Shown piece after piece: positions 1,816 to 55,143 of a DNA stretch of 64,000 nucleotides. The stretch is from Dryomyza anilis (Eukaryota; Arthropoda; Insecta; Diptera; Dryomyzidae). The translations under genes and the position numbers were made by a program. Where the stretch lies: positions 53,932,122 through 53,996,121 of the forward strand of contig OX638133.1 of NCBI GenBank assembly GCA_951804985.1, written 5' to 3'. Each line of letters opens with the position of its first letter. Positions within the stretch are counted from its first letter, which is position 1. The notes below the pieces were generated by a model. The model was given only the letters and a program-made list of their open reading frames with translations. It was not told the DNA's origin and made no database searches.

Positions 1816-2010
1816 TACCGCGCTACCTCTCGTCAGTAAAAAAACCTACGAAAGTAAAACCATTGCCTATGAAAAGCTCTCACCCGCCGTTCGGATTCGG
1901 TAATATACTGTAGGTCCCACCACTTTGAGTACAAATATAACACGCACAGCTCAAAATGGTGAGAGAGCTCGGCCTAAGTTCTATACAGGACTGTTGCGCC
2001 AAACTATTAT
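1816..2010 (+). mobile_element. 5'-truncated tRNA-derived SINE, family 1
   Basis: It is closely similar to the 3' body of the complete SINE at 21409-21720 (shared blocks include ACCGCGCTACCTCTC and CACCCGCCGTTCGGATTCGG). The tRNA-like head with A and B boxes is missing. It ends in an ATTATTATT tail that runs into an (AT)n tract. It lies in the 3' internal region of the LTR-B element. Confidence 0.8.

Positions 2011-2068
<58 letters not shown>
2011..2068. repeat. (AT)n microsatellite
   Basis: Uninterrupted alternating AT immediately downstream of the SINE tail, probably expanded from that tail. Confidence 0.95.
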
Positions 2069-2072
<4 letters not shown>

Positions 2073-2083
2073 TATAAAGAGAA

Positions 2084-2377
2084 GAGGTTATAATTTAAAA
2101 ATTAGATCAAGATTAAATAGGATAAGAAATAAATTAGTCACATGCAACCAATTGCATTCATTTAAAGTTAAAATATAGTTAGTAATAAAATTGTCGATAA
2201 CGCAAAACAACATTTGCATTACTGACCTATATAAATATCGCAAGCCAATTGTTTCATGCTGAAGCACAAATACAATTTGTACGAACGTGTGTATTGTAAA
2301 GCGAGCGTTCATTGCTGACATATAAATGCAGATCTTGATACCATAAAAAATGCAAATAAATATCATATAATATATAT
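2084..2377. repeat. Interspersed repeat R1, copy 1
   Basis: About 290 bp repeated in the same orientation at 3957-4278, sharing blocks such as CACATGCAACCAATTGCATT and GCGAGCGTTCA. Copy 1 lacks two short segments present in copy 2. No terminal repeats or coding frame are seen, so the repeat class is unknown. Confidence 0.8.
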
Positions 2378-2394
2378 ATATATTTGCATAGGGT

Positions 2395-2810
2395 ATGCAG
2401 AATTATTCAAAATGCCAGGTAAACAAGAGTTCAAGGCTTACGAAGATGCCAATAGTTCTAACTGATACGCCAGTGAGACCCTTTGACAAAGTGTACATGG
2501 ACCTGGTGGGTATTCTGCCTGAAACCATTTCAGGGAATAAATACATCTTAACGTTTCAGGACGATTTTTCTAAATTTATGTGCTGTGGGGCTATACCGGA
2601 TGCGGAGGTCAACACAGTAGCAAAAGCATTCTTCAACGAAATAGTTACACGTCACAATATACCCAAGGTATTGGTAATAGACAATGGATGGAATTTCGGT
2701 TCCAGACTATTTTCGGATACATGTAAATTATTAGGAATTAAAAAATTACATGTAACACCCTACCATCCACAGGCTAATGGGAACGAAGTCATCGTCCACC
2801 AGCTGAATAT
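2395..2810 (+). pseudogene. Ty3/gypsy integrase core fragment
   Basis: The fragment encodes part of a gypsy-type integrase, the DDE enzyme that inserts retrotransposon cDNA into host DNA. It includes the block with YMDLVG (first catalytic Asp), the VIDNGWNF block (second Asp) and the YHPQANG block followed by Glu. Asp-to-Glu spacing looks one residue short of the usual D(35)E arrangement, consistent with decay. No zinc-binding N-terminus, RT or C-terminal domain is present. The reading frame leaves integrase similarity at about 2810, where the end of the palindrome-family repeat begins, so that repeat probably inserted into or recombined with this integrase. Family membership is firm; the parent element is not determined. 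Confidence 0.85.
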
Positions 2811-3145
2811 TTACGTATACGCTGCAAAAAAAAGGGCTCTCCCAAACATAAGTTTGCAGGCATTAACATGTATGTTTGGAATTTTATGTAAACATAATAT
2901 ATAATTGAATGATAAATCATTTGTAAACAGGTTTGTATTAACATTTGAACAGTGTTTTAATGAGCTCTGACTTGCATAATAATATCCCGGAAACATTTTA
3001 ATGTTGCCCCTTAAAATGGAGTATGTTCTAATGTAAACATAATAATTACTACATCCAAATAAACTAAATATTTGAACTGAAACATAAATATGTTCAAAAT
3101 AAAACATGATTTTGAACGACCTGAATATACAACTGCCGCCGGAAA
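2811..3145 (+). mobile_element. End fragment of the giant-palindrome repeat family
   Basis: Starting at ACGCTGCAAAAAAAAGGG, this roughly 330-bp sequence matches the outer end of both arms of the palindrome at 46390-55143. It includes the segment CTTAAAATGGAGTATGTTCT, which the left arm has lost but the right arm keeps. Minus-strand frames in the three copies are similar only because the DNA is; I do not regard them as coding. Confidence 0.8.
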
Positions 3146-3956
3146 CCATTATTTTCATGTATTTGAGCATGAGGCAATATATATTTGACCAAAAAAAAAA
3201 TTACCTAAGCACGTATACAGTAGACATACATCTGTAGACATACATTTTATATAAGGTATTTGAACATAAGTAGTCGATTCTCATGTCACAATAGACCGAT
3301 CATGCCCATTTTCTTGTTCAGACAGCTTAGATATATAAATAATCTAAACGTAAAGTTCATTGCCTTAGCTCTTCTACTTTTTCTGTAATCGTGATTTCAA
3401 CAGACGGACGGACGGACAGACAGACGCTAAATCGACTCAGGAGATCATGTATCAGGAGATCAATAATTTATTAATAAAAATAAAAAAATATATATATAAA
3501 ACCCTGCAGTGAAATCTAAACTAGTAGCATAAATATGTAGCATTTATATTAGTAACCATGTTTCTAGATTAGTAACTAGTTAAAATGGAGAGAACCAGTT
3601 AAAAAAATTGTTTCGTAGAGGAACGTGTCAACATTGCCAAAAACAAAATAAATTTTGAAATACAAATTATATTTCATTTATTTATTTTGTAGAAAACATC
3701 TGGTAAATAGTAACCAGTTTAAAGTAGGATTAAAAGAACTAGTTTATAGGCTGACTGTAAAAATTAGTCTATAGACTGGCTACAAGAAACTAGTTTAAAA
3801 ACTACTTAAATGTAATGCAAGAGGGGACAATTGACACATCGTAGGACATGAGCATTGAAAAAATTAGAGTTCATTGTATGAAATTTGGGTCGAATTCGGG
3901 CTAGTTGTGTGTCTACGGAGAACTAGACTAATACTAGTATACAACTAGCCCTTTAA
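3146..3956. other. Non-coding AT-rich stretch with CTAGTT motifs and a hairpin
   Basis: There is no gene. A short GACG/GACA tandem lies near 3402-3425. From about 3520 the hexamers CTAGTT/AACTAG recur many times, ending in an inverted repeat (GGGCTAGTTGT near 3898 and ACAACTAGCCC near 3942-3952). It could be an old MITE, but no target duplication was found. Confidence 0.4.
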
Positions 3957-14592: not shown

Positions 14593-14939
14593 GGTACAGT
14601 TAATTGGTAACCGACGAGAGGAAATTGAAAGGTATCTTAATAAAAAATGTGCACACTTACACGAAATCACAAGCGTCGACTTCAGCTCCATACCGAGACG
14701 AGCCACTCAGTGATGAAAATGCGCGGTGGCTAAGAAGTGCGGCGTCACAAAGACCGCCACCATCATTGAGAACGATTGTAACAGAAGCGACATCATGCAT
14801 CCGTGAAACACACACTTTTCGCTAAGCGGCGCCACAATATGATTGCATATCTAGAGTATATTGCGCAGTGAGCCATTCCAAAGTAGGAGTAATTTGAAAA
14901 TTAGCTTTTAAATATATTTAAAATTAATTGTTTTTGTTT
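14593..14939. other. Unassigned stretch, less AT-rich
   Basis: A plus-strand open frame (14604-14825) contains a Ser/Arg/Pro-rich run but resembles no family I know. It may be part of the element that supplied the tandem units upstream. Confidence 0.3.
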
Positions 14940-14956
14940 TACGACCTCTTGATAAT

Positions 14957-15352
14957 TTTAAGATATTGTCTTAACGTGCTCAAGGTCCAGTCAGTACAAA
15001 TTGGGTGTTTTGTACCAACCAATAAAACAACAAACAATTGGCAAAATGCATTGAGTGGCAGATCGTACAGCTATTCCAGAGGCAGCCAAGCCCCTTCATC
15101 AATGCATTTTGCCAATTGTTTGTTGTTTTATTGGTTGGTACAAAACATCATTGGAAAAGGAAAACTTTAGCGACTTGAAATTTAGAATCTGCAGAGAAAG
15201 ATCGCTGATGAAGGGGCTTGGATGCCTCTGAAACAGCTGTACGATCTGCCACTCAATGCATTTTGCCAATTGTTTGTTGTTTTATTGGTTGGTACAAAAC
15301 ACCCAATTCGTACTGACTGGACCTTGAGCACGTTAAGACAATATTTTAAACA
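14957..15352. repeat. Inverted duplication of a retrozyme-like repeat
   Basis: The left arm (about 14957-15100) and right arm (about 15207-15352) are reverse complements, and a short third piece (15101-15155) also matches the left arm in reverse. The right arm reads in the same sense as the hammerhead-bearing tandem monomers at 16704-19011. Shared blocks are CTGATGA, GAAACAGCTGTACG, TTTTGCCAATTGTTTGTTG and CCTTGAGC. It is therefore a diverged member of that repeat family rearranged head to head. The right arm carries an intact-looking hammerhead fold; the left arm carries only a broken one. Confidence 0.8.
15199..15247 (+). ncRNA. Hammerhead ribozyme motif HHR3
   Basis: The full hammerhead layout is visible. 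Stem I is AGATCG (15199-15204) with CGATCT (15242-15247). The core CTGATGA is at 15205-15211. Stem II is AGGGGC/GCCTCT around a TTGGAT loop. GAA is at 15230-15232, and a minimal self-complementary stem III ACAGCTGT at 15233-15240. The cleavage triplet is GTA, with the predicted cut after 15241. Such a short stem III usually needs two ribozymes to dimerise, as in known satellite and retrozyme hammerheads. Stem I and II bases differ from HHR1/HHR2 but keep pairing. Confidence 0.85.
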
Positions 15353-16109
15353 TATATTTAAAATTTGCAAAACTTAAACAAACCTTAAAATAAGTACAGC
15401 GTATCATTCTGCATCTGTATACAGAGTAGACCGAGGAAGAGCAGCGCCACCAGTACGTAGAACACAACCGACGTCAACAGCCCCGGAAGGCGAAACTCGA
15501 GTAATCCCGCGAATGACACTTATGCCAGAGTTCAAATAGTTGTTGCTGTTTGGAATAGAATTTCTAAACATATTTTTAAAGACCGTATATTTTCTATTTA
15601 TAATTTAAAATTAACTCAATGCAGACATTGTGCAACTAATTTTCGAGCATTTTGTTTTTGGCAAATTCCTCATATTTTGTTTTATTAAAAATACCGTTGA
15701 GATAAAATCAAATACATATAAATAAGCATTTTATATAAAAATTAAAATTGATTCAAACAATTCAATTTGTATTAAAAAAAAACCAATTGTATAAAATATG
15801 TTTTTATTTTTTACGAAATTGTTCTAGGACATCTTTTGCAGTAGTACAACTCATATTTCCTCTTTACGTAAATTTTAAGAGTGCTCCAATGGCTATCCCT
15901 GCAATAACGTTAAATTATTGTCGCATGTTTACCCGCAAGATATACACAAGTAGGATTGCCGCAGGCGGGACTACCTGAGTGAAACAAATGTCAAACTTAA
16001 ATTGGAGTGTTCGCATTACGTATATTCTCAGTTTTGACTCAAATGGGACGATGGCTAAAATGTTTGTTAGGCTAGATAGAAGATTAAGACGGCGAAAACT
16101 GTTTAGCGT
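15353..16109. other. Unassigned stretch
   Basis: Around 15420-15539 a plus frame reads Arg/Pro/Thr-rich sequence without family resemblance and then stops. The rest is AT-rich with no feature recognised. Confidence 0.3.
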
Positions 16110-16571
16110 TGATTATTTTAGAATTTAATTTTAAAGTTGAAAAAACACTTTTATTACTTTATTAACTTTATTTCACTCAATTTTGGTGTACGTGACTTTT
16201 GAAGAAAGTCCGACTTGCAGTTTTTGGCTGACACCAATTACGAAATAGTATAATTGTTGGAGAACTGCTGCTTTGCTTATTTTAACATAGCCCCTTAACC
16301 ATGCAATGAAAAATTGTATTGCAAGCCTCTGTTAACTGTGTAAGCTAACTTAAAAGAGGTGTGACATAAACAAAGCTTTAGCGCTTTGCCAAATTATTAT
16401 CATTGTTGCCAGCGTGAAGCGTTGGAACAATGCTATGAACATGTTGCTGTACAACATAAGTACACATGCTAAACACATGATGCGCTCAACATATGTACAG
16501 CAATATCCAAAATTATATGAAATAGTGAATATCCATAAGGAAAAGAAAAATGTGTGAACTAATTCACAACA
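16110..16571 (-). mobile_element. LTR fragment, family B, copy 2
   Basis: On the minus strand it starts TGTTGTGAATT at 16571, immediately preceded (plus coordinates 16572-16586) by a purine-rich tract AAGTGGGGAGGAA. It is thus a 3' LTR of a minus-strand element truncated at its distal end near 16110. It shares CACTCAATTTTGGTGTACGT, GCAAAGC...GCTTTGC and CCAGCGTGAAGCGTTGG with copies 1 and 3. Confidence 0.8.
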
Positions 16572-17078
16572 TTCCTCCCCACTTATGGAAAAAAAATATT
16601 ATTAATATTTGGATTAATGCTAACTTTTTATTATATGTCTTAAATATATTGTTGAATATATACACATTATGTTTTCTTAGAATTAATTTTAATAATAATA
16701 ATGATGTTTCACTCCCCAGTACATAGCACTTTGTGTCTGGCAGAACCTTGAGCCCGCAAAAACAATATTTTTGCAATAACTCTATTTTAGGTCGAAAAAC
16801 AAACAGCAATTTATACATTCGCAGGGCACAGCGCATTAAAATATCATAAAATCGTGAGATTTTTATTTTTAATAAGCGTACAGTGGTCGTATTTGATTCT
16901 GTAGTGACACTACAGCCTATATGATGCTTGCTGCAATGCGACAACAACAATTGACAATCATAAAGTTAGTGCAGTTTTTGCATGTTTTGCCTGGTTGTTT
17001 TGTGCTTGTACTAAATTCGCATTTAGTTCATTGCACAAAATAATCTTATAGGCCTTGCTATGCAGAAGTTGTGCAGAA

Positions 17079-17125
17079 GACCGCTGATGAGGAAGCTTGG
17101 CAGCTTCCGAAACAGCGGTACGGTC
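17079..17125 (+). ncRNA. Hammerhead ribozyme motif HHR1
   Basis: Stem I is GACCG (17079-17083) with CGGTC (17121-17125). The core CTGATGA is at 17084-17090. Stem II is GGAAGCT/AGCTTCC with a TGGC loop, then GAA (17109-17111). Stem III ACAGCGGT has one mismatch compared with the self-complementary ACAGCTGT of the other copies. The cleavage triplet is GTA, with the predicted cut after 17120. The stem III substitution could weaken it. Confidence 0.85.
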
Positions 17126-17284
17126 AGCCAACAACTTTTTATTTTTGCCAATTGTTGTTTGTTTCACTCCCCAGTACATAGCACTTTGTATCTGGCAACA
17201 CCTTGAGCCCGCAAAAACAATATTTTTGCAATAACTCTATTTTAGGTCGAAAAACAAACAGCAATTTATACATTCGCAGGGCAC

Positions 17285-18566
17285 TTACTTACTTACTTAA
17301 ATGGCCTTTACAACCGTGGGTTCGGCCAGTCGGATCTGCTTTGCGCGCGCTGACGCCAATTAGAAATACCAAGCGTTGCCAGGTTGTCCTCAACTTGGTC
17401 TTTCCAACGCAGATTTGGACGCCCTCTTCTACGCTGTCCACCTTCGAGTTTCGATTCAAGCACCTTCTTGGCTGGAGTGTTTTCATCCATTCGTTCGACA
17501 TGACCTAGCCAGCGAAGCCGCTGGATCTTGATGCGCTTGACTATGTCAATGTCGTCGAATAACTCATACAGCTCGTGGTTCATCCTGATTCGATACTCGG
17601 ACTCTTTTTTGCTTGTTGACACAAGGAACTTCGTCTTGTCCTCGTTTACCGCTAGACCCATTCGACGCGACTCTTTCTCCAATCTGGAGAATGCTGCGCT
17701 GACTGCTCGTGTGCTCCTGCCAATGATATCAATATCGTCGGCATATGCGAGCAGCATGACACTTTTGTTGAGGATAGTGCCGCTTTGACGGAGTTCGGCA
17801 GCTCGAACTATTTTCTCCATCAATAAGTTAAAAAAGTCGCACGATAGGGAGTCACCCTGTCTGAAACCTCGTTCGGTATGAAATGGCTCGGAGAGGTCTT
17901 TTCCTATTCTCACTGAGCAACGTGTGTTGCTCAGGGTCATCCTGCAAAGCCTTATAAGTTTCGCAGGTATACCGAACTCAGACATTGCGGCGTATAATCG
18001 TTCCCTTATCGGAGTGTCGAAGGCGGCTTTATAGTCGACTAATAGGTGGTAGGTGTCAATCTGTTTTTCTAGGGTCTTTTCCTGGATTAGGCGCAATGTG
18101 AAAATCTGGTCTATGGTGGACTTTCCAGGTCTGAAGCCGCACTGATAAGGTCCAATCAGTCTGTTGACGATGGGCTTCAGTCTTTCACATAATACGCTCG
18201 ATAGAACCTTGTATGCGATATTTAGTAGGCTGATCCCACGGTAGTTGGCGCAGATAGTGGGATCCCCTTTCTTAAGGATTGGGCAGAGTACACTGAGGTT
18301 CCAGTCACTTGGCATGCTTTCATCCGACCATATTCTGCTTACGAGCTCGTGCATGCTCTCCATTAGCTCTTCGCCTCCGGTCTTAAACAATTCAGCAGGC
18401 AGGCCATCAGCACCTGCGGCTTTGTTGTTTTTCAGCCGAGCAATGGCTGTTCTGACCTCGTCATGGTCGGGTGGCGGAATCTCAACGTCGTCATCAAGTA
18501 CTGGGGTTGCCGGGTTTGCTTCTCTATCGGTGGAATTGAGGTCATCATCATGTGATGATGACCTCA
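17285..18566 (-). mobile_element. RTE-like non-LTR retrotransposon, 5'-truncated, with 13-bp target duplication
   Basis: Inserted into the second retrozyme monomer. The target duplication ATTCGCAGGGCAC lies at 17272-17284 and 18567-18579. The 3' end (left side, minus strand) is a (TAAG)n-type tandem, here read as TTACTTACTTACTTA, in place of poly(A). The 5' end is truncated and carries a 17-bp hairpin at the junction. The surviving sequence is a single RT frame. Confidence 0.9.
17308..18534 (-). pseudogene. RTE-like reverse transcriptase, internally deleted
   Basis: The frame runs open through RT blocks in order: KNNKAAGADGLPAELFK, LCPILKKGD, ANYRGISLLNIAYKV, QCGFRPGKSTIDQIF, a D-containing block (DYKAAFDT), GFRQGDSLS and the active site YADDID. 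After EDKTKFLVSTSKK it jumps to EYRIRMNHELYE and RLRWLGHVERM near the C-terminus. In related elements well over a hundred residues lie between, so an in-frame internal deletion is likely. The endonuclease domain is lost by 5' truncation. The frame itself is otherwise open, suggesting a fairly recent insertion. Confidence 0.85.
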
Positions 18567-18569
18567 ATT
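18534..18569. repeat. Hairpin at the 5' junction of the RTE insertion
   Basis: AATTGAGGTCATCATCA, a TG spacer, and its exact reverse complement. The outer AATT is partly target sequence. It looks like a snap-back product of reverse transcription at the truncated end. Confidence 0.8.
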
Positions 18570-18828
18570 CGCAGGGCACAGCGCATTAAAATATCATAAA
18601 ATCGTGAGATTTTTATTTTTAATAAGCGTACAGTGGTCGTATTTGATTCTGTAGTGACACTACAGCCTATATGATGCTTGCTGCAATGCGACAACAACAA
18701 CTGACAATCATAAAGTTAGTGCAGTTTTTGCATGTTTTGCCTGGTTGTTTTGTGCTTGTACTAAATTCGCATTTAGTTCATTGCACAAAATGATCTTATA
18801 GGCCTTGCTATGCAGAAGTTGTGCAGAA

Positions 18829-18875
18829 GACCGCTGATGAGGAAGCTTGGCAGCTTCCGAAACAGCTGTACGGTC
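18829..18875 (+). ncRNA. Hammerhead ribozyme motif HHR2
   Basis: Stem I is GACCG (18829-18833) with CGGTC (18871-18875). The core CTGATGA is at 18834-18840. Stem II is GGAAGCT/AGCTTCC with a TGGC loop, then GAA (18859-18861). Stem III is the self-complementary ACAGCTGT (18862-18869). The cleavage triplet is GTA, with the predicted cut after 18870. All required core bases are present. Confidence 0.9.
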
Positions 18876-19011
18876 AGCCAACAACTTTTTGTTTTTGTCA
18901 ATTGTTATTTGTTTCAATCCCCAGTACATAGCACTTTGTATCTGGCAAGACCTTGAGCCCGCAAAAACAATATTATTGCAATAACTCTATTTTAGGTCGA
19001 AAAACAAACAA

Positions 19012-24810: not shown

Positions 24811-25541
24811 TGTTGTAAAGTACAAGTTGATTCTTTTAGAGATTCGAGATATTTCTATGTTCCTCCTCGATATTAGTGGAGAACTATAAATACTATTTAA
24901 TTAAAAACAATTTTTAGTTTAAAATGGAAAAACGTTTTTAATACCTCCACTTGAGGTTATTTAAACCACACCTTTTCAATTGCAACGAAAGGTCTTAACA
25001 ATGCCTTCATTGCATGTTTCACTTAAATTCTTTTTTCACTATGTTCTAGTGAGTTTTCACTTTCACTCAGTTTTGGTGTACGTGACTTTTGAAGAAAGTC
25101 CGACTTGCAGTTTTTGGCTGACACCAATTGCGAAATAGCAGAATTGTTGGCAAACGCTGCTCTGCTTATTTTAACATAGCCCCCCTAATCATGCAATGAT
25201 AAATTATATTGCAAGCCTCTGTAAACTGTGCAAGCTAACTTGAAAGAGGTGGGGTCTAAGCAAAGCTATACCGCTTTGCCAAATTATTGCAAGCCTCTGT
25301 AAACTGTGCAAGCTAACTTAAAAGAGGTGTGGTCTAAGCAAAGCTTTAGCGCTTTGCCAAATTATTATCATTGTTGCCAACGTGAAGCGTTGGGACAATG
25401 TTATGAACATGTTGCTGTACAACATGAGTACAACATGATATAAACATGATGCGCTCAATATATGTACAACAACATCCAAAATTGTGTGAATAGTAAATAT
25501 CCATAAGGAAAAGAAAAAATATGTGAGTTTAAATCAGAACA
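24811..25541 (-). mobile_element. LTR of family B, copy 3 (5' LTR, nearly complete)
   Basis: 731 bp. Minus-strand start is TGTTCTGATTTA at 25541 and end ACTTTACAACA at 24811, followed by the primer-binding site, so it is a 5' LTR of a minus-strand element. Its upstream edge cuts into the protease codons of an F-family fragment (25542 onward), showing insertion into that older element. It contains a 77-bp tandem duplication (about 25211-25364) and three consecutive stem-loops at 25338-25426. gag and pol are absent to its left, where only leader, repeat C and env remain. Confidence 0.85.
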
Positions 25542-32887: not shown

Positions 32888-33036
32888 TTTTTATTAATAT
32901 TTTTAATTGAGTTTTTGGTGTCCGCGTTATTTCGTTATTTGGAGTCGGGGCTTCTTGGATCCTTTTGTCCCACCAAAGAACACATTTTATGGAACAAAGA
33001 AGAACTAGTCAGAGACTTAAGGGATAGCCTCCTACA

Positions 33037-36000
33037 ATGCCTGTGAACCGTACACCGCCGTCTTCACCGCTGATGTCCTTTACTGAAATGCCTTTCGACA
33101 CTGAAATGAATGCTGCCGCCAACACTACCGCTAACGCAGCCGCCAACGCTGCCGTCAATGCAGCCGCCAACGTAGCCGTCAACGTAGCTGCCAACGCTGT
33201 CGCCATTACTGCCACCACCAATCATGCCACCGGTGCTGAGTCCATCAATGTTTCAAGTCCTGCCGCATCTACAACTGTCGTCACCGCTACTACGCCTACT
33301 ACTGAAGAAATCGACAAGGTAACAAATATGTTTAATAATAAAATAGCGGATTTGCAAAATGCCTTAATGCAATCCATGCAATCTATGCAATCCATGCAAT
33401 CTCGTTTGGATTCGTTCATACAATCGGCTCAATCCATGCATCCGTCACCGAATATATCGTCCCAGTGTCAGCAAGCGTCTCTGCCTCAGCCTTTGTCGCT
33501 GTCTTTGCCTTTGTCCCAGCGCTTGCCTCATAGAACGCCTCAGGTGGCATCTCTGCCCGATCACGAATCCCAGCCAACATCGCAGGCTGCGTTCTTGCCT
33601 CCACATATTCGTGAATTCCAGCGATTGAATACATCGTATATACCAATGCCTCAGCACTTGCCTCATACATCGCCTCTGCTGACGTCTCTGCCCGAGCACG
33701 TATCTATGCCAACGTCTCAGTCTGCATTTCTGCCACAATCTATTCGTGAATCCCAACAAATGATTACGTCATCATCCTTGCTAATGCCTCAGCGCTTGCC
33801 TCATACATCTCATATGTCTCTGCCCGAGCACGTATCTCAGCCAACGTCTCAGTCTGCGTATCTGCCACAATCTTTTCGTGAATCCCAGAATTTTATTACG
33901 CCATCGTCTATGTCAATGCCTCATTCAATGTTAAATATACCTATGTCCGAATATAATCGCAGAAACTCTGCCATATATGCCATGCCCGAGGCTCGATCTA
34001 TATATAGGCCTCAATTCGAATCTCAAATGGCACTTCCGCCCATCTATGCATCATCTGAAAATGCTACTTTGTCTGCGCCTGCATATACGTCTACGCTTAC
34101 GCATTTGTCTTCACCTCAATATACATCTATGCAAACGCCTGTTCCAACGTATGTGCCAACTTCAACGTATTTAGCTCAGGCGACGTATCTGCCGCCGTCT
34201 ACGTCTCAATCGGCATCTCTGCCAACGTCTCATTGCATGCCATGTTACACAACATCGTCAACGTCTAACACGGCTCCTACAGTTACGCCCGTTGAACTCT
34301 GTCAGCAACACTCATTGAATTCTCTTCCGTACGCTCAACAGTATCAACGCCACACAAAAATCTATCCTTTGCCTAAATTTTCGGGTATTCCGGAAGAATG
34401 GCAAACATTTATTGAAGCCTTTGAGAGTACAACTAGAGAGTTTGGTTATTCACCTCTACATAATGTAATGCGCCTTAGAGAATCTCTGCACGGAAATGCG
34501 CGGGAGACTGTTGAATCACTTTTGAGTAATTCGTGTAATGTTGCGTTCATTCTCGCAACATTGGAGGAAACGTATGGTCGCCCAGAACAGCTTATTAGAT
34601 CACAGATTCAAAAGGTACGCGAGAATTCTGCAATTGCTGAAGGTGACCTTAGCTCATTAGTTAGTTTCGCAAACAAAATTTCAAACATGGCTACGTTTCT
34701 ACAATCAGCACGTGGTGATCATCACCTTACAAATCCAACATTGTTAAGCGAGCTTATTGCGAAACTACCAATTTCAAAACAACTTCAGTGGGCTGAGAGA
34801 TGCATAATGCTAGTACAAGCACCAACTGCCCTCGATTTAAGTGTATGGTTATGTAGCATAAGAAAAATCGTGAACTTGGTCACAGATTCTATGCCTGCAA
34901 ATTCACTGCCAAATATTGGAAATAAAATTAGTTTGGAAGGAAAAGCTCGGAAATTTGCTTGTGTTAGCGTACAAAAGAAGTGCTGTTTTTGCGATGGTGA
35001 CTGTTCATCGTTAGCGTCTTGTTCCCGATTCATAAATTTGAGTCTCGAAGAACGTTGGATAAAAGCAAAATCGATTCGTGTTTGTTTCTCCTGTTTGAAA
35101 TTTGGTCACCATGTTGCAAAATGCTTCTCTAAGCGCAAATGTGGAAAAAATGGTTGTACGCATTTCCACCATACACTCCTTCACTCTGAGCAAAAATCCG
35201 AAACATCAGAAAAATCATCAACATCGAATCCTGTCGATTCGCATGAACATAGGAACTGTCTTGCAAAATCAAATAGAGATGACGATTCAGTTCTTTTCCC
35301 AATCATTCCCGTAAAACTGTACGGCAAGCACAAAATCTTGACCGTTTACGCATTTGTTGATGATGGAGCAAATGTGACAATGATTGATGCAAACCTCGCA
35401 CGCGAGCTTGAAGTGCACGGACCAACTGATGTCCTGGAATTACAGTGGATAAATCAGCAAACAACGCGGGAGCCGACGGAGATAGTAGAATTTTTAATTA
35501 GCGGTGTTGAGGAAAATGCAGAATCATACCATATGTCGCGAGTTTTTGTGTCGTCTGCTTTAAAATTACCGATACAAACATTACAAGTGAGTAAACTTAA
35601 TAATATCATCGATGGATCTAATATAAAAAGTTACAATAAAGTTCAACCTAAGTTAATTATTAGTTTGACTCACGCCTTTTTAACGGTTCCAATTGAAACT
35701 CCAAGAACATCTATTAGTCCAGGACCAATAGTATCGAAAACCAGATTAGGATGGATGGTCTATGGCCCCGTAGAAGGCGATTATCAGCAACAAAAACGAA
35801 CATCTTGCCATGCAAGAAAAGTTCCAGACAATCCAATGCTATTGGAAGATCTAGCTACAATGATGAAGAACTATTTTGACGTCGAAACCTTTGGGGTAAA
35901 GCCAAATTTGGAACCATTACGATCGAAAGATGAAGAAAGAGCACTTTCTCTTTTAATGTGTACAACAAAACGCCAAGGAGAACGATTTGAAGCTGGTCTC

Positions 36001-36153
36001 TTATGGCGCGAGGATTTTATAGAGTTTCCAAACAGTTTTGAAATGGCTATGCGTCGTCTACAGGGAGTGGAAAAGCTAATGGCTAGAGATCCAGGATTAG
36101 CTAAAGAATATTGCGATAAAATCGAAGACACATTTCGCTGTAATAAATCCTAA
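33037..36153 (+). CDS. BEL/Pao Gag-protease polyprotein, 1038 codons open
   Basis: The ATG at 33037 is the first after the leader. Residues 1-65 are an Ala/Asn/Val-rich run. Near 108-120 there is a QSMQSMQSMQS repeat, and to about residue 430 a Pro/Ser/Gln-rich linker with repeats of the LPQSxRESQ type. The capsid-like DUF1759 region starts at YPLPKFSGIPEEWQTF (about 445). A zinc knuckle CFSCLKFGHHVAKC lies near residue 685. The retropepsin-like DUF1758 domain has FVDDGANVTMID (active site DDGA) near 775. The tail enters the region before RT (RLGWMVYGPVEG; FEAGLLWRED). The frame stays open although the element is deleted, consistent with recency. It would supply particle protein and protease. 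Confidence 0.9.
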   Translation: MPVNRTPPSSPLMSFTEMPFDTEMNAAANTTANAAANAAVNAAANVAVNVAANAVAITATTNHATGAESINVSSPAASTTVVTATTPTTEEIDKVTNMFNNKIADLQNALMQSMQSMQSMQSRLDSFIQSAQSMHPSPNISSQCQQASLPQPLSLSLPLSQRLPHRTPQVASLPDHESQPTSQAAFLPPHIREFQRLNTSYIPMPQHLPHTSPLLTSLPEHVSMPTSQSAFLPQSIRESQQMITSSSLLMPQRLPHTSHMSLPEHVSQPTSQSAYLPQSFRESQNFITPSSMSMPHSMLNIPMSEYNRRNSAIYAMPEARSIYRPQFESQMALPPIYASSENATLSAPAYTSTLTHLSSPQYTSMQTPVPTYVPTSTYLAQATYLPPSTSQSASLPTSHCMPCYTTSSTSNTAPTVTPVELCQQHSLNSLPYAQQYQRHTKIYPLPKFSGIPEEWQTFIEAFESTTREFGYSPLHNVMRLRESLHGNARETVESLLSNSCNVAFILATLEETYGRPEQLIRSQIQKVRENSAIAEGDLSSLVSFANKISNMATFLQSARGDHHLTNPTLLSELIAKLPISKQLQWAERCIMLVQAPTALDLSVWLCSIRKIVNLVTDSMPANSLPNIGNKISLEGKARKFACVSVQKKCCFCDGDCSSLASCSRFINLSLEERWIKAKSIRVCFSCLKFGHHVAKCFSKRKCGKNGCTHFHHTLLHSEQKSETSEKSSTSNPVDSHEHRNCLAKSNRDDDSVLFPIIPVKLYGKHKILTVYAFVDDGANVTMIDANLARELEVHGPTDVLELQWINQQTTREPTEIVEFLISGVEENAESYHMSRVFVSSALKLPIQTLQVSKLNNIIDGSNIKSYNKVQPKLIISLTHAFLTVPIETPRTSISPGPIVSKTRLGWMVYGPVEGDYQQQKRTSCHARKVPDNPMLLEDLATMMKNYFDVETFGVKPNLEPLRSKDEERALSLLMCTTKRQGERFEAGLLWREDFIEFPNSFEMAMRRLQGVEKLMARDPGLAKEYCDKIEDTFRCNKS

Positions 36154-36859
36154 TAAGAAAAAGATTCGATTGGTGTTTGATGCTGCAGCTGAAACAAGAA
36201 GCATGTCGCTGAATAAAGCTTTGTTATCAGGTCCTGATATCAATCAGCCACTGTTGTCTCTTCTTTTTAAATTCAGACAAGCACCTGTAGCAGTTTGTGG
36301 TGATCTCAAAGAAATGTTTCACCAGGTCAGTATCGTCAAAGAAGACCAAAACGCTCAAAGATTTCTGTGGCGAAACGGGGATCAAACAAAACCAGTGGAT
36401 ACGTACGTCATGGAAAGGATGATTTTCGGAGCTACATGTTCACCGACGATAGAGCAATTTGTTAAAAATAGAAACGCGCAAGATTTCAAAACCACTTATC
36501 CTAGAGCTGCAAAGGGTATTGTAGAAAAACACTATGTTGATGACTATGTCGACTGTTTTCAAACAGAAGAAGAAGCCATTCAAGTAATTAAAGATGTCAT
36601 GAAGATTCACAAGGCTGGTGGTTTCGAAATGCACAATATCTTGTCGAATTCCGAAAAACTTTTAAAAGCAGTGTGCAATACTGCTACAAACGATTCTCTT
36701 AGTATCGAGGGTGATAAAGTAGAACGAATTCTCGAAATGTACTGGCAGTCAAAGTCCGATAATTTTGTATTCCAATTAAAGTTTTACAAAATACCGTCCG
36801 AAATATTAAGTTTTACCAGCAGAACCTATACGTGTGGGATGTCTCGTTTTGGTGTGTGA
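36154..36859 (+). pseudogene. BEL/Pao reverse transcriptase, N-terminal half
   Basis: After stops at 36151-36156 a different frame opens with RT block sequence IRLVFDAAAETRSMSLNKAL, then CGDLKEMFHQV (first catalytic Asp), RFLWRNG, FGATCSP and the active site HYVDDYVD. The residues normally linking the protease tail to this block are missing, so a small deletion with frameshift occurred near 36140. Similarity fades after EKLLKAVCN, at about 36670-36730, where the large internal deletion begins. Confidence 0.9.
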
Positions 36860-38936: not shown

Positions 38937-41036
38937 TTAGTAAATTAAGGGTTGTAATTTCCAGTTATATATAATAAAAACCTGGTCCTGTTTTTTTCGC
39001 TGCTGTTCTACGGTAGTAGTTCGATGCGTTGTTGTTGTTTCTGACGTATTGGCTTCTATTTCATGTGTCTTCGTTCGTTGACTTGCTATGGGTGTTGTGG
39101 TGTTTGGTTTCTGCGTTGTTGATTTCCGCAATGACCCGATTTTTTCGAGTGGCGATTTCTTGCTGGGAAATGTATTGGACACCATTTCAAGGTTTTCCTT
39201 AGCCGCTTCTACATCTATTGTTGCTATTGGTGATTTATTTGTATTAAATTCATCGGCTTTTATTGTTGCTTTATTTTTAATTGTCGAGTAGTAATGTATG
39301 TATAATACATATGCTGCTATTATTATTAATATCAGCATTAATATGCCGTAAGACATACCGGTTTTCGTTATTTCATTTTGACGATTAAGTAATTCTTTGC
39401 GTTGCTGGTTATCAGTTAATTGTAGTAATATTTCGTCGTAATCACGATGCCCATCTCTTAATGCTGATCTTATTTTGCTGTGATCTGACACCAAGATCGG
39501 TAACGATGTTTGTGATATATTTGAATATGGTTATGATGACCAATTGCCTTGTAAATTTTCTATCATAACCGTATGTTCTTCCTTCTTGTATGTTATATTC
39601 CAAAAGCTTTGATGTGTAAACTCATATGGCAGTATCATTTCTTTGTTGTGTATGTTGCAAGCTTCATTTATGGACATCCAACCCAGGCCGGATAGTGTCA
39701 ATGTGGCTATATTTGACCCACAAACTGCTTCGAAAAAGGCTGGTGTATTGAATTTATACAACCATGTGTTTGGTGTCCATAGTTTAACTACTAGGCCAGA
39801 ACTCCTTTTGATTGCAACATGTTCACAGGTATCTTTCATATCTATTCTGTGTTGAATCAGCGCGACTTCACATAGTGTGTTGCTAGTTGTTAGCATGGTT
39901 CCTGGACGTTTGCATAGTGTAATTTCTTAGTCCGTATGTTGGCTAACCGAAATGCATTTGCTGTGATCTTCATTCGTTAGACCTATGTATTTGCTCCGGT
40001 CTTCTGCTTCTGATATGTAGTCATATGTTGTTTTAACCAATGCATCAAATTCTTCATTAATATTTGTGGGTATTGGGTAAATTCTATATAATGTGAACAA
40101 CAAATCATCAGGTAGTGGTGTCTTGATGACTATTATTAGGCCGTCTGTGTCTGGGAAAACTCGTACTGTTGATGCACGGTGCATTTCGAATGATTTTTGT
40201 ATGAACCACTTCGCCTTTCCTCTTAACGTGAGGCTAGTCAGCATTTCATCTAACTCGCTCTGGTCTATAATTGTCGGGTGTAATCGTCCCTTGTATAGAT
40301 CATCTATGATTGCCATTTCCATCAGCTGTTGTCCTTGAATTTCGATTAGGTTTGCATTAATTGTAGATTGAATTTCCAAGGTATCCATCAAGAATAGTAA
40401 ATGACTAACTTGATGATTTATTTTTTCATTTATGTATTTTTGTGTTCTTATTGTTATGTTTAACACATTTTGCAGATTTTCGACTTCCTCCAATGAATTC
40501 AATAAAGGTTCTGCTATCTTGTCATAATTTGACGAAATCACCGTAATTTGTCTTTTCATAATTTCGTATGTTTTATGTTCGCTTTCATCAATATTATTCA
40601 GGTGTTTATAGATAGTTTCTCTTTCATTACTGTCCATCAGTCCAAAAGCCCAGTTGAGTCCTTCGCCAATGAAATTGAGTGATCTCTTTTGTCGGTTACT
40701 ATTTATTGTACGTTTAATTATTTCTTCATTTTTCTGTAGTGTGCCTATTATTGCCATGGTTTCCCGTGTTGCTGCTAAACACGATCTTTTTATGCTGGGT
40801 CCGTTTACATTGGAGCTCATTTGTTCGCACATTGTATTTGCCGTGATTATGTATTTGTTTGTCAGCTCCAGGAAATCGTTCAGTTGTAATTTAGCTATTA
40901 TCGTCCATTCATCGTTGTAGAACAAAGCATCAGTTGTCTTCTCAAAGAATAATCTGGTATCATTAATTGATGTCTATGTGGTGTTGACTGCTTCATTGGC
41001 TGCCAGCATCAGGATCAGTGTGACAATTCTAATCAT
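38937..41036 (-). pseudogene. env: Errantivirus-like envelope gene, full-length frame with three stops
   Basis: The minus-strand ATG at 41036 opens a signal-peptide-like segment (MIRIVTLILMLAA). One uninterrupted codon phase runs 699 codons to the stop at 38937-38939, broken only by in-frame stops at 40976-40974, 39929-39927 and 39533-39531. A furin-type site RQKR is followed by a fusion-peptide-like SLNFIGEGLNWAFGL near 40690. Then come a long helical region (LNNIDESEHKTYEIMKRQI), a Cys-rich domain and a transmembrane segment (YGILMLILIIIAAYVLYI) near 39345, ahead of a Thr/Ser/Lys-rich tail. This is the layout of baculovirus-F-like fusion proteins of insect errantiviruses. It lies between element D gag and protease and is followed by its 3' LTR; gag-pol and the 5' LTR of this element are missing. 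Confidence 0.88.
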
Positions 41037-46389: not shown

Positions 46390-46956
46390 ACTTATTCATA
46401 TGATGAAAACGTTATTATGTACACGTTGCAAAAAAAAGGGCACTCCCAAACATAATTTTGCAGGCATTAACATGTATGTTTGGAATTTTATGTAAACATA
46501 ATATATAATTGACTGATAAAGCATTTGTAAACAGGGTTGTATTGAGACTTGAACAATGTTGTAATGAGCTCTTTACTACATTAAAATACATTAAATTACT
46601 ACATCCAAATAAAATAAATATTTGAACCGAAACATAAATATGTTCAAAATAAAACATAATTTTGAACGACCTGAATATAAGTTATGTTTCCAGTGATACA
46701 TATCAGTTGTTTCAGTTCAAAAAGTAGTATGTTTGTCTTAGAAACATATTTAAATATTGTAAAAAACATGCCAAATTCTGTTTGAAAATCGAAACACATA
46801 TTTTTATTTGTGGTTTTTTCAAATTAGTTTCAGAAATTATATACTGCACTATATTATACTCTGTTACTATTTGTACTTTTTGTAACACAATTTATATAAT
46901 TATTTAATTTACAAATAACAAAATTATCACCGACGCGAACACGTTGTCTCAACGAA

Positions 46957-47330
46957 CAACAAAAAAAACGTACGTAGAAAATGCCGATCACCGAGTGTCA
47001 ACTTTGTATACAAGAAGAGAGCTGCAAGAATTCCTTTATTTACATTTGAATTAAAATTTTTGTTTGTTTTCAAACATCAGTATGTTTAAAATGACCCTAT
47101 ACATACTTCAAAAAAAACGGCAAAAAAAACGTAGGTAGAAAATTCTGCTAAACGAGTGCCAACTTCGTATACAAGAAGAATGTTGCAAGACTACACTTAT
47201 TTAAATACAATTTCTTTTTTGTTTGTTTTTAAACATCAATATGTTCAAACGATGGCAAAATATGGCGTAGGTAGAAAATACTGCACAACGTTACCAACTT
47301 CGTCAGTTGATAAATTATCGAATTATGACG
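46957..47330. repeat. Tandem units of about 136-161 bp in the left arm
   Basis: The landmark ACGTA(C/G)GTAGAAAAT recurs at 46968, 47129 and 47265. It is followed by CCAACTTCGTATACAAGAAGA-type sequence and an AAACATCA(A/G)TATGTT palindrome. The units are mirrored in the right arm at about 54180-54545. Confidence 0.8.
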
Positions 47331-47937
47331 AGCGTTGCGAGCGTACGTTGTATTTAGATTTGATTAGCATTTTCTGTGTTTCGAAACATAGTTTTAACCA
47401 AGTAAATTGCCAAGAAATAGTTTATTCAAACGCAATTAAAATTTTATGTTGGTATTGTAACATATTTATGGTAAATTTGACACATTCTGCTGGACAATAT
47501 AGTAATGTTTACACGTGAACAAAAATAAATTCAATTGCGATTATAATTTAATTACACTTCATTCCTAATACATGTATGGTAATTTCGTATTACTTTTTAA
47601 TTACATTCAAACATATTCAAACAAATATTTTCTATCCGTGTACTTAAGAAAATACAAAAATTAAAGTGCAAGTTCGGTTGTGGTCAAGATTGAAATTTTT
47701 TTTGGCGAAAGGTTTTAATGTTTTTTCGATGTACTCTTTTGGAAGAGAGCCGACATCTAATTGACTAAAGGCCAGATCGTGGCTTTACAATTAACATTGT
47801 CAACAATTAACATTGTCAATCACAAACATTGTTTAAATTACGTTTCCCAGTTTACCCCAATATCACAATTTGAACATAACTTAGCACCATATAAACAATG
47901 TTAAATTGTTTGAAAAATATTTAAATTGTATACAAAA

Positions 47938-48068
47938 ACCGAAATCAAAACCGAAACCGTAACTTGGAACTGGTATACCGAAACCGTTTCGTTATAAAAA
48001 CATAAAACCGAAACCGTTAATCGAAACCGATACGCGGAAAACCGAAATCGAAACCGTTATTCGGTTTC
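47938..48068. repeat. CCGAAACCG short-repeat block, left arm
   Basis: About ten variants of CCGAAACCGTT or CCGAAATC follow each other. Mirrored at 53444-53575. Confidence 0.85.
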
Positions 48069-48119
48069 AATCATTGGTGTAAATTATATATAAACAAAAA
48101 CATGTTCGAAATACGTCAA

Positions 48120-49010
48120 CGAACTCATCCAATAAACCAAAATGCACGTAAACGTGCCGTATACGTTCCGTATTTACGGGCATAAACACCTTATACGGCA
48201 GCCGTTTACGGAACGTAAAGCAACACGTTTTACATATGATATTAAATACAAAATACGGCATTCAAAAAAATTCCGTAAATAAAATTCCGGCAATAAAACG
48301 TGGAAGCGTGAATGTATTTAACGGCCGCAAACGGAATTTCTTTACGGTACTTAAACGCACTGAATGAACGTAAAAGGCACGTAAATACGGTCCGTAAAGG
48401 GAACGTAAATATTGCACGTAAACCGGACGTAAATACAGTGCCGTATTCGTGCCGTATGTAAGGATTTATGTAAAATAAAAATTTTATAATTATAGAAACA
48501 TACATTATCTGCGCATAACTGAAAGTATGTTTTCAGCATTCATTAGATGGCATCTTTAGCCATTCATTAACATTTTGCAACTAGAAAATTATATTCTTCA
48601 ATTATATTCTATACTTTTATTATTTCGAATGAAAAATATTTTTCAATCATGAGAATAAAAAATCTAGTCATAAAAATATTTATTTAAATTAAGTAAAGTC
48701 GTAAAGTTACCGTTTTTCACACGTAAAAGTGGTTGTGCATATTATTTGCCGTATTTACGGTAGCTGCCGTTTTTGAGCCGTAATTACGTGCACGTAACGT
48801 TGTCGTATTTTGCTTGTAAAAATGTTTTTTTGTATATTCAATCCAATTTACGGTAACAGGCGTTTTTGTACCGTAATTACGTGGCAAGTAGAAATTAATA
48901 TCCGTATGTATTACCGTATTTACGGCTAGACCCGTATTTACCAAGTAATATTGTGCCGTATTGTCACCGTAATAACGGGCATACCCGTTTTCCAAACCGT
49001 TTTTACGTTT
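48120..49010. repeat. CGTAAATACGG-type palindromic motif block, left arm
   Basis: Dozens of variants of CCGTATTTACGG/CGTAAATACGG occur with irregular spacing, in places every 15-30 bases. The motif is itself nearly palindromic. Open frames here are only a by-product of the motif. Mirrored at 52500-53395. Confidence 0.9.
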
Positions 49011-49641
49011 CAGTCCGTATATATGTTTATTGGGCAGTCATTGTTTTTATTTTTTGAATACATATTTTTCGACATCAAAAATAATAAAAAAAAAAACAAA
49101 CAAACGGAATGCACACTACGTTTTAAAGTTTATTTTAAATAAAATAAAGTGAAATAAAACCAAATATAATTTCAAATCAATTGCATAAATGTAGTTCAAA
49201 TTATTACAATATTTTCTACAGGCCATAACTGTTGCTTTAAGTTCCTGTCAAGATGTATATTAATAATAATGTTAAATAACACTGTGCGCACATTTGACAA
49301 CAATTTTCGACACCTGAAATGTAAATTACATATTCTTTAGGATTTGGACATTCTAAGAACAATGGCGTTTTCAATTTTTTCCCTACACTTCCAGTTTCAA
49401 GGATATTTGAGATAAACGAAAAACCACGTTTTTGAGGATTCTTTAGGTTGGTAAGCGTTGATTATAATGTCAGAATTATAACAGAACACAAATTATATGT
49501 ACATTTCAATTTTCAAAATTCCTTTAACAGGACCTGAGATATGATGCAAAGAGGACTCAATTTTAGACTAAAAATAAACCAGTTTTTGAGCATTTGTTTA
49601 TCAATACTCAGTTGTGCAGCATTCTTGTGCTATGCATTACA

Positions 49642-50150
49642 ACTTAACAAATCTCATAGATTTCAATCCTGTTTTATTCAAAAAAATCGTAAACGTCAAA
49701 ATTGGGTATATGAATTAAAAAAAGTTAAAAGTATTAAAAAATAAAATGAAAATTATTAATCATAATAAATTCGTAGAAATATTAGTAACTCGTACGTTTT
49801 TTACTCTTTTACAATATTATTGTGGTAAGGGAGATAGTTGGGTAAAATATATCAATTCATCATACCGGTTATGGGTTTCCGTATTTGTAAAATATTATTA
49901 TGAATCAGGATTTATATCTGGTATTAAGAGGTCCAATGAATTGATAAATTAGACTTAAATATCTCCCAGACCAAAAGATTATTATAAAGGAGGCAAAAAA
50001 TACGAGCTAATAATATTTCTACAAATTTATTATGCTTAATAGTTTTATTTTTTTAACTTTTCGCTTTATTTAATTTGTATGCCCAATTTTGACGTTAACA
50101 ATTTTTTTTTGAATAAAACAGGATTGATATATTTGAGATTTGCTAACTTA
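49642..50150. repeat. Nested inverted repeat within the left arm
   Basis: 49642-49870 and 49920-50150 are imperfect reverse complements. Both contain ATTTCAATCCTG or its relative, CGTCAAAATTGGG.ATA and AGTAACTCGTACG/AGCTCGTATTTT. The loop is about 50 bp. The mirror image lies at 51363-51871, so each arm carries its own hairpin. Two open frames of 67-68 codons (49541-49744, 49746-49952) overlap this structure and are intact in both arms, but resemble nothing known. Confidence 0.8.
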
Positions 50151-50549
50151 TCTTCACGTCTTCATCCCGGGCCAGTTTCGACTAGATCTCGAGGTCGACT
50201 GCCTAACCACAACCGGGGTTTTTGCTTCAAGGATCGCTACCGCTGCCGAAGTGTTGCAGTTTAGACCAGGCTTGGTAGCCAATGTTTGTTGTCTTGTAGC
50301 CGCTTGAACCAGGTTTAGAAACCACTGTCCCTGCGGCCTTACTGCTGGAAGCGTGCTCAGAGGCCGAACTTCCTATCGGCTTTTTAGGAGAGCAGTACTC
50401 TTTGTGTCCTGTTCGTTGTCGTCATTTTTGCTTGGTTGAGTTTTTTTCTTTTTATTGTTCATGTTTGGTCTCACGAGTATCGGAAAAGAGGAAGGTCCAC
50501 CCGCACAGAGATCCATATAAGCGGATAAAGCTAGTTATTCCGGAGAAGC

Positions 50550-50965
50550 CAGGTATCCGGATATGCCGCCTAGCAGATTATCGACACGCTATCTTAATCC
50601 AGCCCAGGGGAGAGAAAGCCTTAGGGATCGGGAAAAGAGGGGCGTGGTACCTCAAGCATATGATCAAGTGTCATTGCCTGGTGCTGTACTATTGAGTGGT
50701 AACAAACACGAGGGACTGACACCTGACCTTAGCTAATCTTCGTCACCAATACAGACCATTGGTGACAACTGTGGTGATTATTACCAGTCGGCATACACTA
50801 AAAGGGTTTGGTAAGAGGATTTCTGCCAACCGATGGAAAAAAGTAATTAAATATAAGATGTGTAATAAAATAAATAATAGTTTAAGTTTATAGTTATATT
50901 AATTAAATAAAAATAAAATATAGTTTAAAAAAGGAAAAAATGAATATTTTGTAAACAAATTTTTA
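50550..50965. other. Palindrome spacer (loop)
   Basis: 416 bp of unique sequence between the arms. Its left part is GC-richer and continues an open frame from the arm (to 50695); its right part is AT-rich with AATAAA (50865). No recognised domain. Confidence 0.6.
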
Positions 50966-53900: not shown

Positions 53901-55143
53901 TTTGAATGTAATTAAAAAGTAATACGAAATTACCATACATGTGTTAGGAATGAAGTGTAATTAAATTATAATCGGAATTGAATTTATTTTTGTTTACGTG
54001 TAAACATTACTGTATTGTCCAGCAGAATCTGTCAAATTTACCATAAATATGTTACAATACCAACATAAAATTTTAATTGCGTTTGAATAAACAATTTCTT
54101 GGCACTTTACTTGGTTAAAACTATGTTTCGAAACACAGAAAATGCTAATCAAATCTAAATATTACGTACGCTCGTCATAATTCGATAATTTATCAACTGA
54201 CGAAGTTGGTAACGTTGTGCAGCATTTTCTACCTACGCCATATTTTGCCATCGTTTGAACATATTGATGTTTAAAAACAAACAAAAAAGAAATTGTATTT
54301 AAATAAGTGTAGTCTTGCAACACTCTTCTTGTATACGAAGTGGGCACTCGTTTAGCAGAATTTTCTACGTACTTTTTTTTTGCCGTATTTTGTATAGGGT
54401 AAACATACTGATGTTTGAAAACAAACAAAAAAATTAATTCAAATGTAAATAAAGGAATTCTTGCAGCTCTCTTCTTGTATACAAAGTTGACACTCGGTGA
54501 TCCGCATTTTCTGCGTACGTTTTTTTTGTTGTTCGTTGAGACAAAGTGTTCGCGTCGGTGATAATTTGTAAATTAAATAAATATATAAATTGTGTTACAA
54601 AAAGTACAAATAGTAACAGAGTATAATATAGTGCAGTATGTAATTTCTGAAACTAATTTGAAAAAACCACAAATAAAAATATGTGTTTCGATTTTCAAAG
54701 AGAACTTGGCATGTTTTTTACAATATTTAAATATGTTTCTAAGACAAACATACTACTTTTTGAACTGAAACAACTGATATGTATCACTGGAAACATAACT
54801 TATATTCAGGTCGTTTAAAATCATGTTTTATTTTGAACATATTTATGTTTCGGTTCAAATATTTATTTTATTTGGATATAGTAATTATTATGTTTCCATT
54901 AGAACATACTCCATTTTAAGGGGCAACATTAAAATGATTCCGGGATATTATAATGTAAGTCAGAGCTCATTACAACATTGTTCAAGTCTCAAAACAACCC
55001 TGTTTACAAATGCTTTATCAGTCAATTATATATTATGTTTACATAAAATTCCAAACATACATGTTAATGCCTGCAAAATTATGTTTGGGAGTGCCCTTTT
55101 TTTGCAGCGTGTACATAATAAAGTTTACATCATATGAATAAGT
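50966..55143 (-). repeat. Giant palindrome, right arm
   Basis: 4178 bp, the reverse complement of 46390-50549 with scattered substitutions and small indels. It keeps the outer-end segment deleted from the left arm (near 54930-54980). All internal modules are present in mirror order. Confidence 0.92.
51053..51288 (+). pseudogene. Protein-like stretch in the inner arm (unknown)
   Basis: In the right arm ATG 51053 opens a Lys/Asn/Gln-rich run (MNNKKKKTQPSKNDDN). Near 51130 another phase continues as a Ser/Gly/Lys-rich sequence (ASEHASSSKAAGTVVSKPGSSG) up to a stop at 51286. The mirror lies at 50227-50461 on the minus strand. The composition resembles the basic heads of non-LTR ORF1/gag proteins, but no domain is identifiable. 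A frameshift or an intron must separate the two parts if they ever formed one protein. Confidence 0.3.

Follow-up and report, generated by a model that had tools for sequence, protein, structure and literature searches.

Two families of hammerhead-bearing repeats lie in a 64-kb stretch of the Dryomyza anilis genome (64,000 nucleotides of contig OX638133.1, hereafter the window), family 1 with a unit of 455 nt and family 2 with a unit of 473 nt. We consider it likely that both are non-autonomous metazoan-type retrozymes, moved by an enzyme of the type found in Penelope-like elements (PLEs) through a multi-step mode of insertion. Their copies displayed two fixed 3' ends, variable 5' ends, a head-to-head polarity, target duplications, laps that run past the predicted cut site and rare variants shared within arms. 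The template RNA was probably circular or multimeric, and the likeness of these insertions to those of PLEs suggests that the mobilizing enzyme is of the PLE type.

The repeat that we call family 1 had been described in an initial annotation as showing all hammerhead elements in order at 17079-17125 and 18829-18875, and both motifs were indeed found at these places. The predicted cuts were exactly 455 nt apart, as had been claimed, once we removed the LINE fragment (17285-18566) together with one of the two copies of its 13-bp target duplication. In addition to these two motifs, we found a diverged third hammerhead and, inverted beside it, a decayed fourth. The four motifs are as follows.

17079 to 17125, plus strand: hammerhead copy 1, family 1; stem I 17079-17083/17121-17125, core 17084-17090, stem II 17091-17108, GAA 17109-17111, stem III 17112-17113/17118-17119, predicted cut after 17120
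18829 to 18875, plus strand: hammerhead copy 2, family 1; predicted cut after 18870
15200 to 15246, plus strand: family-2 hammerhead; predicted cut after 15241
15061 to 15105, minus strand: decayed family-2 hammerhead; 39.1 bits with model R1, whose scores in the window are no independent evidence because its training copies include three from the window itself

A descriptor with all three helices detected 3 sites in the 64-kb window, versus a mean of 0.02 and a maximum of 1 in 100 first-order Markov shuffles; a loose hammerhead pattern without helices matched 8 times in the window versus 9.0 expected, which is chance level and uninformative. The hammerheads of the window are real as sequence and predicted structure. 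Copy 1 has a G in the stem III loop, where most copies have a T.

The initial annotation had also proposed a covariance search with Rfam models. No significant match was obtained and nothing reached the gathering score, an outcome that speaks against the annotation on this point; the best match, at a relaxed threshold, was to RF00008, with 12.5 bits (cut-off 48.5; E 4.2) and in one of the two copies. Matches to nos_TCE, miRNA, snoRNA and CRISPR models were far under their cut-offs and were taken as chance. The dominant haplotypes of the two families differed at 8 of the 47 hammerhead bases. Two-sided changes affected three of the helix pairs concerned, one in stem I and the others in stem II; a further two pairs had changed on a single side, and in one of these the pairing at the loop end of stem II is lost. 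In an alignment of 14 sequences, hand-picked out of 98 motifs, 93.9% of the cells were paired, versus at most 44.4% in any slid version. Three of five measures lay beyond all 500 shuffles of this alignment, while two were not above chance, the number of pairs with two-sided changes being reached in 371 of 500 shuffles and that of further pair types in all 500. Since the changes mostly separate the two families, the covariation amounts to about three events.

The core was intact in 49 of 70 family-1 and 21 of 28 family-2 motifs, many motifs being decayed. In most copies, the sequence of stem III with its loop is the palindrome ACAGCTGT, which would permit the ribozyme to act as a dimer, and predicted folds of the monomers favored pairing in competition with the hammerhead core. 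We infer that the RNA cleaves itself at the hammerhead.

Mapping of the repeats to their units, with phase denoting the position counted from the predicted cut, gave the following layout in the window.

14912 to 14925 (left) and 15352 to 15365 (right): target duplication of the family-2 insertion, 14 bp by eye, of which the script reported only 7 bp
14926 to 15351, both strands: head-to-head insertion of family 2, a minus arm followed by a plus arm, the inverted arms being mapped to the 473-nt unit
16705 to 17284, plus strand: first part of the family-1 array, phase 40 to 455, then 1 to 164, from repeat families and mapping to the 455-nt unit
17285 to 18566, minus strand: 5'-truncated LINE fragment inside the family-1 array, with an RVT_1 ORF at 17308-18585
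17272 to 17284, identical to 18567 to 18579: 13-bp target duplication of the LINE, read from the sequence
18567 to 19010, plus strand: second part of the family-1 array, phase 152 to 455, then 1 to 140, stopping near site B

The best named relatives of the LINE reverse transcriptase (Pfam RVT_1) were from Zeugodacus, Bactrocera and Drosophila. The initial annotation had suggested a genome-wide copy search for tandem arrays, and the 455 spacing recurs elsewhere in the genome. The annotation was right in describing tandem units, but this is no plain satellite array; it is rather one of many insertions, which are short and dispersed over several contigs. Family-1 matches were mostly 90 to 97% identical to the window copy (80 listed) and family-2 matches mostly 94 to 98% identical (68 listed). 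A first look yielded 1,771 candidates for family 1 and 1,683 for family 2, which are not copy counts because only 40 of each were scored. An exact pattern for the module common to both families (see below) occurred 1,103 times (585 forward, 518 reverse) in 656.6 Mb, and its reversed control 0 times.

As initially annotated, the repeats have no protein of their own: the longest sense ORF starting from ATG spans 48 codons in family 1, where it traverses the hammerhead, and 23 in family 2, and the longest antisense ORFs from ATG span 73 and 52 codons, respectively. The GC content of the units is 38.2% for family 1 and 34.9% for family 2. The absence of an ORF bears on an alternative that we hold to be unlikely, namely, that we are dealing not with independent retrozymes but with pLTRs, solo or in tandem, belonging to an autonomous Penelope element, the copies read lacking its ORF. 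Hammerheads, tails and a head-to-head order occur in the pLTRs of PLEs, according to the available portions of two reports (PMC11167929, PMC3846280), and the family-1 sense ORF passes through the hammerhead, which is where PLE ORFs begin. However, in the best-scoring copies each lap closes on itself after 455 or 473 nt and no ORF intervenes, family 2 offers no sense ORF beyond 23 codons, and the hammerhead described here has a stem III, whereas PLE variants lack it, as stated in the accessible part of PMC7761336. The fetched loci contained 48 ORFs of at least 140 amino acids, and none of the first 40 listed looked PLE-like by eye, an inspection that does not amount to a test. Because they have no ORF, the repeats are not PLEs; their mode of insertion is nevertheless PLE-like, in keeping with our preferred reading of retrozymes moved by a PLE-type enzyme.

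The ends of the copies were determined in 37 family-1 loci, which were the best scoring, and in 20 family-2 pieces, most of them picked for the presence of both strands; L038 and L062 were left out as near-duplicates of L031 and L050. Three features of the window serve as reference.

17234, plus strand: site A, phase 114, the 3' end of part of the insertions elsewhere
17269, plus strand: site B, phase 149, the other 3' end
17200 to 17249, plus strand: putative start-site module, with outer stem ACCT/AGGT and an AC-rich hairpin at 17211-17229 with loop CAATA

Single-direction family-1 copies ended at phase 98-121 (site A, 9 copies) or 138-155 (site B, 19 copies) in 28 of 29 cases, near 114 and 149, respectively; the 29 ends take in the window array and near-duplicate pairs in L026 and L019. 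The sole misplaced 3' end (L030) was at phase 149 in an earlier mapping. The 5' ends scattered, with only 1 of 28 falling in either the A or the B window. The three single-direction 3' ends of family 2 were at A, A and B. No A-tail or simple-repeat tail was found at the 3' ends of the fetched loci, which ran straight into differing flanks. In L018, L025 and L043, the 5' end coincides with the cut site; a run-off origin was considered and rejected because hammerhead-like letters go on upstream.

Site A lies at the 3' foot of the module hairpin and site B beyond the outer stem. The module is kept in both families (7 sequences) as ACCTTGAGC.CG, the AC-rich hairpin and AGGTCG.AAAACAAA; of the 7 hairpin pairs, 3 have changed on both sides from one family to the other, and family 2 has lost one. 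In predicted folds of representative stretches, both families took the same two-tier module shape. The family-1 module hairpin of the window was recovered in the fold (z -1.95), and the family-2 stretch at 15315-15355, folded alone, gave another hairpin (z -0.12).

Both strands of one family were adjacent in 24 arrays, all of which were ordered minus then plus, with the 5' sides joined, the tail-to-tail order being found in 0 of 24. In 18 of the 19 arrays where both outer ends could be placed, one was at A and the other at B (family 1, 8/8; family 2, 10/11), a result with a probability of about 4e-6 if the ends chose their sites independently. The exception was the family-2 insertion of the window, B/B by script because the script ran into the target duplication, and A and B by eye. 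Five arrays, three of the 11 from family 1 and two of the 13 from family 2, had an unplaceable end (L019, L023, L040, L052x and L053x). L010, in which a plus family-2-like piece precedes a minus family-1 array by 115 bp, was rejected as a further both-strand array and taken as two insertions. At the inner junctions, the arms overlapped by 1 to 11 bases in 18 of 24 cases and by 74 in one and were separated by a gap in five, as raw counts without a chance control; none of the 24 junctions was palindromic. The overlaps suit two separate cDNAs joined by microhomology.

Target duplications of at least 10 bp, with a range of 10 to 18 bp, flanked 9 of 11 distinct family-1 arrays (exceptions L023 with 7 bp and L040 with 2 bp) and 11 of 13 distinct family-2 arrays (exceptions L053x, where the sequence was cut off, and that of the window, 7 bp by script), lengths that may contain a few bases matching the element end by chance. 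In a chance control with mismatched flanks, which covers family 1 only, 9 bp was reached in 2.9% of pairs. The duplications were 93.3% AT (n = 20), compared with 65.5% in the window. A preference of A versus B ends for one target strand was not significant among 20 duplications (p 0.055). Among single-direction family-1 copies, 0 of 27 rows had a duplication of at least 10 bp (L030 has 9), and a single-direction family-2 copy, L057, had one of 15 bp. We then searched 26 single-direction copies for a duplication displaced upstream: L011, with 16 nt at a distance of 80 bp, and L034, with 20 nt at 63 bp, exceeded all of their controls, and the remaining 24 failed to do so. These possible target duplications concern L011 around 2006-3410 and L034 at 2077-2611, and L034 may hold one unusually long duplication.

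Fixed 3' ends, variable 5' ends and target duplications of such size occur with LINEs too, and a LINE fragment is present inside the array. It seems nonetheless quite improbable that a LINE moves the repeats by ordinary target-primed reverse transcription, the inversions being due to twin priming, since the 3' ends have no A-tail or simple-repeat tail. In twin priming, moreover, the outer end of the inverted part is expected to vary, whereas here both outer ends are fixed, one at each site. Finally, a satellite DNA whose hammerhead is a fossil and which spread through unequal exchange without retrotransposition would account for the tandem copies and the many decayed motifs but is scarcely tenable for short insertions dispersed on several contigs with fixed ends and with target duplications, which largely contradict it.

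The laps bear on the form of the RNA template. Arrays crossed the predicted cut site, repeatedly so in L009, thus indicating that the template was a circle or an uncut multimer and excluding a cleaved linear monomer. Rare family-1 variants were shared by the laps of an insertion (Jaccard 0.118 within versus 0.011 between insertions; 0 of 2000 permutations) in a test that omits near-duplicate and foreign pieces in L010, L011, L019, L026 and L038, while family 2 showed no excess of sharing within insertions (0.010 versus 0.013). Without L009, family-1 sharing was 0.080 within arms and 0.018 between arms, so that the two arms may usually stem from two RNAs. Variants shared between arms numbered 27 of 58 in L009, compared with 3 of 164 in the other family-1 arrays (0.018, with a background of 0.011). 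One circle serving both DNA ends is therefore supported in L009, the other family-1 arrays being near background and family 2 giving nothing. In L009, the two laps beside the head-to-head junction do not carry a phase-415 variant that is common to the full outer laps of both arms. The units were predicted to fold as circles more stably than 100 shuffles (z -4.6 and -5.6), on the basis of a single copy per family with a core that is not error-free. We infer that circular RNAs of 455 and 473 nt are formed.

We propose the following course of insertion. Tandem transcripts would undergo self-cleavage at the hammerhead and then circularize, giving circles of 455 or 473 nt. A Penelope-type enzyme, with reverse transcriptase and GIY-YIG nuclease, would bind the folded module roughly 80 to 150 nt past the cut and cut both strands of an AT-rich target about 10 to 18 bp apart. 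Both DNA 3' ends would then prime reverse transcription inside the RNA at sites 30 to 35 nt apart, one DNA end per site, and each cDNA would continue beyond the hammerhead junction, in some cases over several laps. Head-to-head joining of both cDNAs, often at a short microhomology, would leave a target duplication, and single-direction copies would represent events resolved another way. A broader proposition is that metazoan retrozymes parasitize the Penelope enzyme, as circular RNAs that contain a ribozyme and the enzyme's start-site module. Every full insertion would then comprise two coupled target-primed reverse transcriptions, which must use different start sites, one for each DNA end, before their products are linked head to head. 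We judge the chances of this proposition to be evenly balanced.

The retrozyme-like reading of the initial annotation is supported by the type I hammerhead with a 2-bp stem III and a tetraloop, the tandem units, the lack of a long ORF, a GC content under 50% and target duplications of more than 4 bp, all of which are features of metazoan non-LTR retrozymes in the available text of PMC7229834. That text gives repeats of 150 to 450 bp and circles of about 170 to 400 nt, a range that the units described here slightly exceed, and contains no mention of head-to-head insertions or of two fixed 3' ends. The mobilization of metazoan retrozymes by PLEs is a published proposal, based in the portions available on co-occurrence, tandem copies and shared hammerheads (PMC7229834, PMC7761336). 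Plant LTR retrozymes, in the same portions, are characterized by type III hammerheads, LTRs, a PBS, a PPT and 4-bp duplications (PMC7229834, PMC7761336). Like the repeats studied here, they are non-coding retroelements with hammerheads and presumed circular RNA. The pDo500 satellite of Dolichopoda cave crickets is reportedly a hammerhead-bearing insect repeat some 500 bp long; likened by description only, it resembles our repeats in host class, size and hammerhead and differs in being satellite DNA.

For the Anolis PLE, the accessible part of PMC11167929 reports that an AC-rich stem loop holds two adjacent internal start sites of reverse transcription, that the stretch between the start sites constitutes an optional tail of 30 to 40 bp, and that the enzyme acts on both strands, cutting and extending them, with a preference for AT-rich DNA. 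Its authors observed the strands to be alike in their start sites in vitro (PMC11167929), unlike the one-of-each rule found here. For rotifer Penelope, an excerpt of PMC3846280 describes a pLTR in inverted orientation, with one of the inverted pLTRs bearing a 31-bp tail, duplications of 8 to 10 bp and a mostly head-to-head order. Taken from these excerpts, the likeness of our repeats to Penelope/Poseidon PLEs extends to two adjacent internal start sites of reverse transcription at an AC-rich stem loop, a tail of 30 to 40 nt on one end (PMC11167929, PMC3846280), head-to-head inverted copies, short target duplications, AT-rich targets and a hammerhead upstream of the start sites. In contrast to PLEs, the repeats have no reverse transcriptase or GIY-YIG nuclease ORF, the whole unit is a few hundred nucleotides long and the hammerhead has a stem III. 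Self-priming was deduced from palindromes in rotifer Penelope, as far as the excerpt goes (PMC3846280), unlike here, where the inner junctions are not palindromic.

In the open-access literature, we found no description of a retrozyme that inserts head to head or has two start sites and no report joining PLE insertion anatomy with metazoan retrozymes. The end pattern and the head-to-head, one-of-each anatomy are thus new here for retrozymes. This end-and-junction signature provides a sequence test of PLE mobilization that is usable on any animal genome. It also bears on the completion of PLE insertion, a step left open in the available text of PMC11167929, which would here consist of two primed cDNAs, one per start site, joined head to head. 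If the broader proposition above is true, retrozymes would be a clean genomic record of insertion completion by this third class of eukaryotic retroelements.

Looking at the remainder of the window, a near-perfect palindrome of 8.7 kb was found at 46431-55103, with arms of about 4.1 kb, main pieces that are 92 to 100% complementary and a center of about 416 nt; it is either a foldback element or an assembly artifact. Five retrotransposon ORFs (39927-40973, minus strand; 33028-36153, 36101-36859, 58909-60084 and 2392-2904, plus strand) carry between them a Baculo_F-like envelope, DUF1759, two RVT_1 pieces, one of them with RNase H, and an integrase core. A further repeat, containing GCAAAGCTT..GCGCTTTGCC-like stretches and partly in tandem, recurs at 1412-1495, 16313-16400 and 25207-25366.
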